From the NCBI RefSeq assembly GCF_007827795.1, contig NZ_VITI01000009.1:124001-188000 (forward strand): 64,000 nt of DNA, in the 5' to 3' direction. Each line of letters opens with the position of its first letter. Position 1 is the stretch's first letter. This stretch comes from Azospirillum brasilense. Its GTDB lineage: Bacteria; Pseudomonadota; Alphaproteobacteria; Azospirillales; Azospirillaceae. The notes below the pieces were generated by a model. The model worked only from the letters and a program-made list of their open reading frames with translations. It was not told where the DNA came from and ran no database searches. Of the stretch, positions 21,327 to 22,343 are shown one piece after another. Made by a program: the position numbers and the translations under genes.

Positions 21327-21572
21327 TTGGTGGGTTGGGTCGTCAGAACGCTTCTGTTGTGCTTCGTGGTCGGGCTGGTTCTGTCCTTCCTGGACATCAA
21401 TCCGGCCAGCATCCTGACCAACAGTTGGGCCACCATCCAGGACATCGCCCGGCTCGCCGCGGACATGTTCCATTGGGCGCTGCCCTACATCCTGATCGGA
21501 GCGGTGATCGTCGTCCCGTTGTCCGTCATCGGAGCGGTCATGCGCTGGACCCGCACGCGCCACCGTCCATGA
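21327..21572 (+). CDS. Small two-helix membrane protein (DUF6460-like)
   Basis: An 81-residue protein with two hydrophobic helices (about 5-22, TLLLCFVVGLVLSFL, and about 50-70, YILIGAVIVVPLSVIGAVM) joined by a short amphipathic stretch containing DINPASIL. This matches the DUF6460 pattern as I remember it (V-R-L-L..VVG..LS.LGLDP..IL then LGAVIVVP). Function unknown. The start is a TTG at 21327 or GTG at 21330, with GAGG at 21315-21318 as ribosome-binding site; no in-frame ATG is available. Confidence 0.72.
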   Translation: MVGWVVRTLLLCFVVGLVLSFLDINPASILTNSWATIQDIARLAADMFHWALPYILIGAVIVVPLSVIGAVMRWTRTRHRP

Positions 21573-21604: not shown

Positions 21605-21635
21605 AAAAAAACCGGAGATTCGAAGGAATCTCCGG
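21605..21635 (-). terminator. Intrinsic terminator of small-RNA unit 1
   Basis: On the minus strand, a perfect 10-bp stem (21626-21635 with 21612-21621) around loop 21622-21625, followed directly by seven U (A-tract 21605-21611 on the + strand). A textbook Rho-independent terminator. The small membrane-protein gene ends at 21572 on the other strand, so this structure serves a minus-strand transcript starting to its right. Confidence 0.92.
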
Positions 21636-21663
21636 CTAAGTGAATACAGGGAGGGTTAGAGAC
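21605..21663 (-). ncRNA. Candidate small RNA, unit 1 (about 59 nt, FNR-type promoter)
   Basis: Predicted from structure, not from homology. An FNR/FixK-type box centred at 21704.5 would, at the class II spacing of -41.5, start transcription at about 21663 (a G). The transcript would open with GUCUCUAACCCUCCCUGU and run to the terminator ending near 21605. Positions 21642-21666 are identical to 21806-21830 in unit 2. The unpaired CCCUCCC is complementary to GGGAGGG Shine-Dalgarno sequences, as in several alphaproteobacterial trans-acting sRNAs. No credible start codon with a ribosome-binding site opens a coding frame across it. The transcription start is inferred. Confidence 0.7.
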
Positions 21664-21666
21664 AAG
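21642..21666. repeat. 25-bp direct repeat, copy 1
   Basis: Identical over 25 bp to 21806-21830. The copies are 164 bp apart in the same orientation, each immediately upstream (minus-strand sense) of a terminator whose stem sequence differs. Conservation of this block while the stems diverge argues that it is the functional part of the two RNAs. Confidence 0.95.
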
Positions 21667-21697
21667 GACTGTTTATCTCCTTGGCACATCCGCTTCG

Positions 21698-21711
21698 TTG
21701 ATCTGTATCAA
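21698..21711 (-). promoter_or_regulatory. FNR/FixK-type binding site and promoter of unit 1
   Basis: TTGATctgtATCAA is a perfect dyad matching the TTGAT-N4-ATCAA FNR/FixK consensus. Its centre is 38.5 nt from the edge of the 25-nt conserved block, exactly as in unit 2. On the minus strand TAAACA at 21675-21670 is a possible -10 element relative to a start near 21663. An FNR/CRP-family activator binding at -41.5 fits a class II promoter. Confidence 0.75.
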
Positions 21712-21763
21712 TCTGCGTTAATTTTATCGAATGCCTACAACTGGACGGGCTTTGTCTTTGGAC

Positions 21764-21799
21764 AAAAAAATAGCCGGGGGTTCCATTGGAACCCCCGGC
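21764..21799 (-). terminator. Intrinsic terminator of small-RNA unit 2
   Basis: On the minus strand, a 12-bp GC-rich stem (21788-21799 with 21773-21784) closes a 3-nt loop and is followed, after UA, by seven U (A-tract 21764-21770 on the + strand). Its stem sequence is unrelated to that of unit 1, so the two terminators are not simply copies. Confidence 0.92.
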
Positions 21800-21827
21800 A
21801 TAGGCGAATACAGGGAGGGTTAGAGAC
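21764..21827 (-). ncRNA. Candidate small RNA, unit 2 (about 64 nt, FNR-type promoter)
   Basis: Same layout as unit 1: FNR/FixK-type box centred at 21868.5, inferred start at about 21827 (a G at the same place in the conserved block), the 5' sequence with CCCUCCC, then a strong terminator. It lies 79 bp beyond the hisI stop on the same strand. Read-through from hisI is possible, but its own promoter-like elements and the duplication argue for an independent RNA. The two units could act redundantly or be tuned by their slightly different boxes. Confidence 0.7.
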
Positions 21828-21830
21828 AAG
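21806..21830. repeat. 25-bp direct repeat, copy 2
   Basis: Second copy of the block at 21642-21666, identical over 25 bp. The flanks diverge at once on both sides, except that the distance to the FNR-type box is preserved to the nucleotide. Confidence 0.95.
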
Positions 21831-21861
21831 AGCGTTCTACCTCTTCCCGCCTCGGGCTACG

Positions 21862-21875
21862 TTGACATAGATCAA
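21862..21875 (-). promoter_or_regulatory. FNR/FixK-type binding site and promoter of unit 2
   Basis: TTGACatagATCAA matches the FNR/FixK consensus in both half-sites (TTGAC and ATCAA are both accepted variants). Centre 21868.5 is 41.5 nt from the inferred start at 21827. TAGAAC at 21839-21834 (minus strand) is a reasonable -10 element. It sits between the hisI stop and the conserved block. Confidence 0.7.
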
Positions 21876-21908: not shown

Positions 21909-22343
21909 TTACTTATGCGTGTGTCCGTAGAGAATCGACGGGTCGGTCTCGACATTCTGAACGATGTCCAGTTTTCCATCCCGCAGCGCCCGGTAGAAGC
22001 AACTGCGGCGTCCGGTGTGGCAGGCCACGCCGTCCTGCTCCACGATCACCAGCAGGGTGTCGCCGTCGCAATCGACGCGGAAATCCTTCAGCCGCTGCAT
22101 CTGTCCGGAGGTTTCGCCCTTGCGCCACAGCCCCTTGCGGGACCGTGACCAGTAGCAGACACGGCCTGTCCGCAACGTTTCCAACACGGCCTCGCGGTTC
22201 ATCCAGGCCATCATCAGGATCTCGCCGCTTCCCTCCGCCTGGGCGATGGCCGGGACCAGCCCGTCGGCGTTGAAGGCGATGGCGGCGATCACGTCCTCAA
22301 ACGCAGGCTCAAACGGCGGCTCAAACGCGGTGGCGTCCGTCAT
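21909..22343 (-). CDS. hisI: Phosphoribosyl-AMP cyclohydrolase
   Basis: A 144-residue HisI, third step of histidine synthesis: it opens the adenine ring of phosphoribosyl-AMP to give ProFAR. Signature segments are MMAWMNREAVLETLRTGRV, the WSRSRKGLWRKGETSG motif, and DCDGDTLLVIVEQDGVACHTG..SCFY with the metal-binding Asp and Cys residues. The monofunctional form (no HisE domain) is usual in alphaproteobacteria. It follows metC by 40 bp on the same strand and may share its transcript. No other his gene is near, apart from a HisC-like aminotransferase 6 kb away. Confidence 0.95.
   Translation of the reverse strand: MTDATAFEPPFEPAFEDVIAAIAFNADGLVPAIAQAEGSGEILMMAWMNREAVLETLRTGRVCYWSRSRKGLWRKGETSGQMQRLKDFRVDCDGDTLLVIVEQDGVACHTGRRSCFYRALRDGKLDIVQNVETDPSILYGHTHK

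Follow-up and report, generated by a model that had tools for sequence, protein, structure and literature searches.

A predicted family of short tandem small RNAs with FNR/FixK-type promoters beside hisI in Azospirillum

Introduction

In the DNA of Azospirillum brasilense analysed here, a 64-kb window that is the whole stretch under study, two short and similar units lie on the minus strand between hisI and the DUF6460 gene, spaced 164 bp apart. What do these units encode, what would drive their transcription, and on what might their products act? Azospirillum is widely applied to crops as an inoculant, and its nitrogen fixation and denitrification are under the control of low oxygen. An initial annotation of the same DNA had read the pair as a duplicated small-RNA locus with a conserved 5′ block and diverged terminators, comparable to AbcR1/AbcR2 and belonging to no described family that it knew of. 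The present analysis compares the units with those of related genomes, describes their promoters and considers their likely action.

Results

Two units on the minus strand

The locus comprises the following features.

21327..21572, plus strand: DUF6460 gene, convergent neighbour (PF20061, synteny)
21605..21663, minus strand: small RNA gene, unit 2, predicted length approximately 59 nt (R1 match 74.2 bits, fold, promoter register as in unit 1)
21610..21637, minus strand: terminator stem-loop of unit 2 (terminator scan; helix covaries across units)
21642..21666, minus strand: 25-bp block of unit 2, identical to the unit 1 block
21765..21827, minus strand: small RNA gene, unit 1 (hisI-proximal), predicted length approximately 63 nt (R1 match 80.7 bits, fold, 5′ end placed from the box)
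21773..21799, minus strand: terminator stem-loop of unit 1 (terminator scan; helix covaries across units)
21806..21830, minus strand: 25-bp block of unit 1, including the exposed CUCUAACCCUCCCUG 5′ arm (almost unchanged across 45 distinct units; unpaired in the fold)
21909..22343, minus strand: hisI (phosphoribosyl-AMP cyclohydrolase), conserved neighbour (PF01502, synteny)

Each unit runs from an FNR/FixK-type box through a −10-like hexamer, GUCUCUAACCCUCCCUGUAUUC and a terminator hairpin to a U-run, and between the start of the box and the end of the block the two have the same base at 49 of 70 positions. The initial annotation's pair of identical 25-bp blocks, spaced 164 bp apart, was confirmed: GAATACAGGGAGGGTTAGAGACAAG is the exact plus-strand sequence at both 21642-21666 and 21806-21830, and the number of such identical 25-mer pairs expected by chance in 64 kb is approximately 2e-6 if equal base use is assumed. 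The strong minus-strand terminators with different stems that it placed after each block were likewise found. The stem of unit 1 (21799-21773) has 12 pairs, 10 of them G-C, and that of unit 2 (21637-21610), which differs in sequence, has 12 pairs with 6 G-C, each followed by a T-run; taken together, the hits of the terminator scan do not exceed chance, with 3 found against 1.9 expected in shuffles. The sole listed open reading frame over the region, a 76-aa frame with a GTG start on the other strand, has no Pfam match. The earlier length predictions of 59 and 64 nt are close to the approximately 59 and 63 nt predicted here.

FNR/FixK-type boxes and promoters

The initial annotation gave no FNR boxes; those before the units are an addition to it. 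The putative promoter elements are as follows.

21670..21675, minus strand: −10-like hexamer of unit 2, TAAACA (−12 to −7), read from the sequence
21698..21711, minus strand: FNR/FixK-type box of unit 2, TTGATACAGATCAA, exact match to TTGATNNNNATCAA, centre 41.5 bp upstream of 21663
21834..21839, minus strand: −10-like hexamer of unit 1, TAGAAC (−12 to −7), read from the sequence
21862..21875, minus strand: FNR/FixK-type box of unit 1, TTGATCTATGTCAA, one mismatch to TTGATNNNNATCAA, centre 41.5 bp upstream of 21827

In both units the centre of the box lies 41.5 bp upstream of the same G (21827 and 21663), and from this distance the 5′ ends of the RNAs are predicted near the G of GUCUCUAACC. 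Apart from the two unit boxes, TTGAN6TCAA is absent from the 64-kb window. In number, the box-like sites of the window are unremarkable, since 10 of 100 shuffles contain at least 2; what stands out is only where they lie. A sigma-70 scan of the window gave no promoter-like site (full match) before either unit, and TA.A recurs at the −10-like position over the units of the family.

A covariance model (R1) was built from 45 distinct units of the genus loci; it describes the RNA only, and the box sequence was never shown to it. Its 168 match rows, from 99 loci, were trimmed by hand, leaving out second locus ids for the same unit of one genome, the contig-cut L147 and four antisense partial rows, and the remainder was collapsed to 114 distinct matches. 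An exact box lies 41.5–45.5 bp upstream in 111 of these 114 matches, which are not independent, as genus units share descent. The remaining three comprise two with a one-mismatch box and one chance-like match, in a Peptococcaceae MAG, without a box. Of the 111 exact boxes, 108 are centred 42.5–44.5 bp from RNA position 1, and 109 have G at base 16 of the FnrN/FixK consensus, given as TTGANCNNGATCAANG (PMC4999443). The background for a box in register ranges per position from 0.0002 in the window to 0.001 in unit-bearing loci, true units included. Among control RNAs with a similar core the box is missing from all 10 AbcR-like places (described below), which come from six genomes, and from five of five more in g35. 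Conservation is higher in the box and the arm than between them. These comparisons support promoters of the FNR/FixK type, with a box near −41.5 and a −10 element.

RNA fold and covariation

Both RNAs are predicted to fold into a free 5′ arm and a single hairpin, at −26.9 kcal/mol for unit 1 (z −5.1) and −18.9 kcal/mol for unit 2 (z −5.8), a stability reached by 0 of 200 shuffles in either case. In an alignment of 52 diverse units, which had been fitted to the structure beforehand, all 13 hairpin pairs have double changes (10.0 in shuffles, 12 of 500 of which have all 13), paired cells make up 90.7%, double-change cells number 167 against 50.5 in shuffles, and the covariation score is 0.638 against 0.215. 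A MAFFT alignment of 45 units gave 84.1% paired, 11 of 13 pairs with double changes, and 63 double-change cells against 20.2. The 5′ arm is near-invariant over the 45 distinct units and the terminator stem varies, a pattern expected for a base-pairing RNA. The arm is unpaired in the fold and exposes a motif complementary to ribosome binding sites.

Distribution of the family

Searched for at the DNA level, the locus is present in 36 of 37 genomes of the genus, this one among them, and in none of 24 genomes of other families. R1 was run on 82 genomes of the family, the same 82 that the order-level search covered. Among the matches listed, it gave full-length matches in 44 of the 45 genomes of the genus and in 14 of the 37 others in the family; these counts rest on matches down to an E-value of approximately 4.6e-6, and at E 0.01 the tally is 74 of 82, with partial and weak matches among them. 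Among the same listed matches, all 17 full-length ones outside the genus have an exact box 41.5–43.5 bp upstream. In a class-level search of 385 genomes, the four best-scoring matches outside the family, which fall in families f16 and f87, have a box in register. The class matches examined outside the family, 27 in number, were those with surrounding loci from a far longer list; 23 of them have no box in register (in L094 a box lies 70.5 bp upstream), and many of the 23 read like SorX/AbcR RNAs. With a broader model, R2, none of 13 further places examined, some of which overlap R1 places, has a box. The 17-mer GTCTCTAACCCTCCCTG occurs in 45 stretches of the genome_contigs collection, mostly from Azospirillum, Skermanella, Azospirillaceae and Rhodospirillales MAGs; the other matches are from a Peptococcaceae MAG, a Cloacimonadota MAG and one record named Roseomonas genomospecies 6.

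Loci carry arrays of one to four units. Because one to four copies recur in relatives, mostly at the same place, the units probably constitute an undescribed RNA family. The covariance search proposed by the initial annotation detected units throughout the family and in two further families of Alphaproteobacteria, and no Rfam family fits them. The combination of box, block and covarying hairpin is shared by 44 of 45 genus genomes and also occurs in other genera, which supports the duplicated small-RNA gene, with predicted transcripts, that had been proposed. Gene structure, promoter type, conservation and hairpin are all supported by comparison between genomes.

A candidate FNR-type activator

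In the genome, 13 matches to the CRP-type helix-turn-helix exceed the family cut-off, one of which does so only when its neighbours are included. An FNR-type regulator is represented by the FnrL-like protein L163, which has a CxxCx7C motif plus a later cysteine (cysteines 21, 24, 32 and 120) and a TTETVSR helix, and which aligns with solved FNR; its best NCBIfam model is FnrL (NF045989), at 197.4 bits and below the cut-off of 300. Over the 82 family genomes, R1 units are present in 57 of 75 genomes with FnrL versus one of seven without it (Fisher p 0.002, a value that ignores relatedness and was computed without the G077 unit described below). G028, a genus genome without units, also lacks an FnrL orthologue, and was scored so although two FixK-like paralogues, 57% identical, pass 1e-50. 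Two kinds of case speak against a strict link: seven g34 genomes, G061 and nine of 11 g35 genomes have FnrL and, among the matches listed, no full-length unit, and G078 carries a unit and no FnrL at 1e-50. FnrL is most likely the activator, and the box could also be read by other proteins of the CRP/FNR type in this genome.

Proposed action and candidate targets

We regard it as likely that the two units are sibling FnrL-activated small RNAs of approximately 59 and 63 nt, members of one undescribed family, which are predicted to block Shine–Dalgarno sites in low oxygen. Transcription, the role of FnrL as activator, and target pairing with its outcome are what we infer for the following scheme. 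When oxygen falls, an FNR-type activator, most likely FnrL, would bind the TTGAN6TCAA box at −41.5 of each gene and recruit RNA polymerase from a class II position. Each gene would yield an RNA of approximately 59–63 nt made up of a single-stranded 5′ arm, a terminator hairpin and little more. The arm, GUCUCUAACCCUCCCUG, would mimic the anti-Shine–Dalgarno end of 16S rRNA, and its exposed CCCUCCC may pair with AGGGAGGG-type ribosome binding sites and lower the translation of mRNAs unwanted in low oxygen. Several copies could provide dose and redundancy.

The target pattern GGGAGGGTN1-12ATG occurs at 35 places in the own genome against 0 for the reversed control, a bias expected of any Shine–Dalgarno-like pattern. 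Five genomes contain 143 such places, of which 30 were examined as loci together with 80 further stretches, the rest of those in G036 and G103 being left out; the places examined gave 73 site-ORF rows of at least 60 aa. Few candidates are repeated between genomes: an mgtE-like gene (three), an MFS symporter (two) and CBS proteins that are 52% alike (two). We treat these candidates as weak leads only.

In three Azospirillum genomes (L236, L255 and L199), the start codon of a gene for an mgtE-like magnesium transporter is immediately preceded by AGGGAGGGT. In the own genome, the stretch TACAGGGAGGGT matches the small RNA arm over 12 contiguous pairs.

The own genome (G000) also contains two AbcR-like small RNA genes, each with GTCTCCCAGACGTGAAGCCTCCCTG (GTCTCCCAGACGTGAAGCCTCCCTGTTCAACTCGCCG) and a terminator, at C4:181459-181483 and C4:226801-226825 (L310, L316, L338). 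The first lies behind a LysR gene and neither has an FNR box. The label AbcR-like derives from the motif and the LysR neighbour, and searches of Rfam to E 0.1 gave nothing for L338 and L316. These genes and the FNR-driven units have a common CCTCCCTGT core, so that shared partners are likely. This core in separate genes of the same genome, together with the weakness of the target prediction leads, would also fit FNR/FixK-driven RNAs that act mainly by another route, such as sponging AbcR-like small RNAs or their chaperone, or pairing within coding regions. We consider this unlikely, as the conserved element is exposed and complementary to ribosome binding sites, and the motifs of AbcR and ar14 have been put forward as the part pairing with such sites (PMC7143759, PMC10746234).

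Relation to known small RNAs

Rfam, which we take to hold an FnrS family, gave no model match that would identify the units as homologues of E. coli FnrS. No small RNA family of Rfam reaches its gathering score for the units, and the list to E 10 names other families; the sub-threshold matches are SorX (RF02784), with 15.3 bits against a gathering score of 46.6, and suhB (RF00519), with 12.9 against 41. Membership in a family of Rfam was rejected on this ground, and the earlier statement that no described family has this sequence stands, with only the sub-threshold resemblance to SorX and suhB beside it. It is quite improbable that the units belong to the AbcR/suhB or cuckoo families: they have the CCUCCCUGU core and a terminator in addition to the SorX and suhB matches, but the scores are far below the gathering thresholds, the hairpin is single, and AbcR-like genes, one behind a LysR gene, exist elsewhere in the genome. 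The earlier comparison with AbcR1/AbcR2 is apt as an analogy and fails beyond that, the genome having separate AbcR-like genes without FNR boxes.

Among the listed titles and opening parts of abstracts on Azospirillum small RNAs, on FnrL/FixK small RNAs and on FNR-linked small RNAs, none describes this family. In the main text of a study of A. brasilense Sp245 small RNAs, the terms FNR, anaerob-, microaer-, hisI and cyclohydrolase are absent (PMC7685610); its supplementary lists lie outside this statement and may hold an unnamed entry.

Several known RNAs are alike in part. FnrS of E. coli and other enterics is described as a short RNA activated by FNR from a class II site at −41.5 (PMC3032703), the overproduction of which represses more than 30 mRNAs for functions dispensable without oxygen (PMC8139620); in 2011 an fnrS homologue had not been seen outside Enterobacteriaceae, according to PMC3032703. 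The units here share with it a box at a predicted −41.5 and would resemble it in action, which does not imply kinship; they differ in having as many as four copies in tandem, a 5′ arm with CCCUCCC and a single hairpin. The small RNA FnrS/AniS of Neisseria is likewise reported to be FNR-activated and to have both a class II box and a Rho-independent terminator, but as a single gene with a 5′ stem-loop, cloned to +111 (PMC3032703). NmsRA and NmsRB of N. meningitidis are reported as tandem small RNAs, 70% identical, with anti-Shine–Dalgarno motifs acting on metabolic mRNAs (PMC5362039), whereas they belong to the stringent response via RelA and not to FNR. C/U-rich anti-Shine–Dalgarno motifs, proposed as the part pairing with ribosome binding sites, are a likeness to AbcR and ar14 (PMC7143759, PMC10746234), and several neighbouring copies are a likeness to AbcR and CcsR (PMC7143759, PMC10253847). 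The settings differ, with lsrB for AbcR and DUF1127 for CcsR. AbcR1/AbcR2 and ar14/NfeR1 are longer and have three stem-loops. Compared with the three stem-loops given for AbcR (PMC7143759), both units have one hairpin, and in place of the three hairpins each with an unpaired CCUCCUCCC given for ar14/cuckoo RNAs (PMC10746234) there is one CCCUCCC, in the unpaired 5′ arm.

Synteny with hisI, moved and missing units

In all 30 genus loci examined (L003-L032) hisI lies beside the units, and DUF6460 is within the examined flank in 18 of them. Outside the genus, hisI adjoins a unit in seven of 10 unit-bearing genera (g28, g29, g30, g33, g35, g36 and g37) and in both f87 genomes; in the examined stretches of g27, g31 and g32 it is not beside the units. 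By its position in these genomes, hisI is an old neighbour of the units. In the A. oryzae/lipoferum group (L084, L085 and L086), one unit is at hisI and the others lie approximately 7.8 kb off in opposite orientation, near DUF6460, each displaced unit keeping its own box. This arrangement of about 8 kb looks as after an inversion with a breakpoint between the small RNA units. Units parted from hisI, or in loci without a hisI match, keep the box.

G028 is the only genus genome without units, and there 34 bp separate hisI from DUF6460, measured between their aligned ends (L343, 1501-2194). Just downstream of hisI in G077 (L349), synteny revealed a diverged unit, TCTCCAACCTTCCCA, with the box TTGATGCAGATCAA at 42.5, which the covariance model search had not reported. 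G077 is one of 16 genomes whose hisI loci were examined in this way; the other 15 have no TTGAN6TCAA within 1.5 kb behind hisI.

Two further sequences were observed beside these. G136 (L358/L342), from another family, has a TCTCAACCCTCCCTG unit that lies approximately 1.2 kb beyond hisI and has no FNR box; it may be a relative that is controlled differently. G023 has an extra dispersed copy, TCTCAACCCTCCCTGAAG (L307:1203-1253), with the box TTGACTTCAGTCAA at 42.5, on a contig other than that of its hisI locus.

Unit 1 starts 82 bp past the stop codon of hisI, on the same strand. This position and the lack of a promoter-like site in the sigma-70 scan would suit hairpins that are terminators of the hisI operon and a block that is hisI 3′ UTR, processed or not, with no separate promoter. 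We rejected this as very improbable: each unit has its own box and −10-like hexamer at a fixed spacing before it, up to four units stand in a row, and units away from hisI or without a hisI match keep the box. That the units are a dispersed repeat or mobile palindrome resembling a terminator has almost no probability and was rejected, as the block occurs at a single locus in its own genome, at an old syntenic position, with box and arm more conserved than the stretch between, even though two similar units stand side by side and the one extra dispersed copy in G023 exists, itself with a box.

The initial annotation had named a mere dispersed repeat as the outcome that would count against its reading, and such is not the case: with up to three mismatches, the genome holds the two exact copies of the block and three unrelated-looking places. 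The extra candidates (the three 3-mismatch places, and C1:288286 just behind a protein frame) were not counted as units, having no FNR box.

Discussion

It is conceivable that the predicted FNR-driven RNAs derive from AbcR-like RNAs, which is conjecture. Extending this, the arrays of minimal RNAs, each a mimic of the 16S anti-Shine–Dalgarno sequence and a terminator under its own FNR promoter, might form an oxygen-controlled translation switch in a lineage of free-living nitrogen fixers, perhaps descended from an AbcR-like RNA that lost its 5′ hairpin and gained an FNR box, and competing with AbcR-like RNAs for the same ribosome binding sites. We offer this as a tentative and rather doubtful possibility. 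If such competition were true, oxygen and nutrient signals would meet on shared mRNAs.

With a conserved family of FNR-driven RNAs, low-oxygen control would gain a post-transcriptional level, and the Alphaproteobacteria would have their own counterpart to enteric FnrS. The simultaneous repression of many genes by FNR, which mostly activates, would then have an explanation as well.
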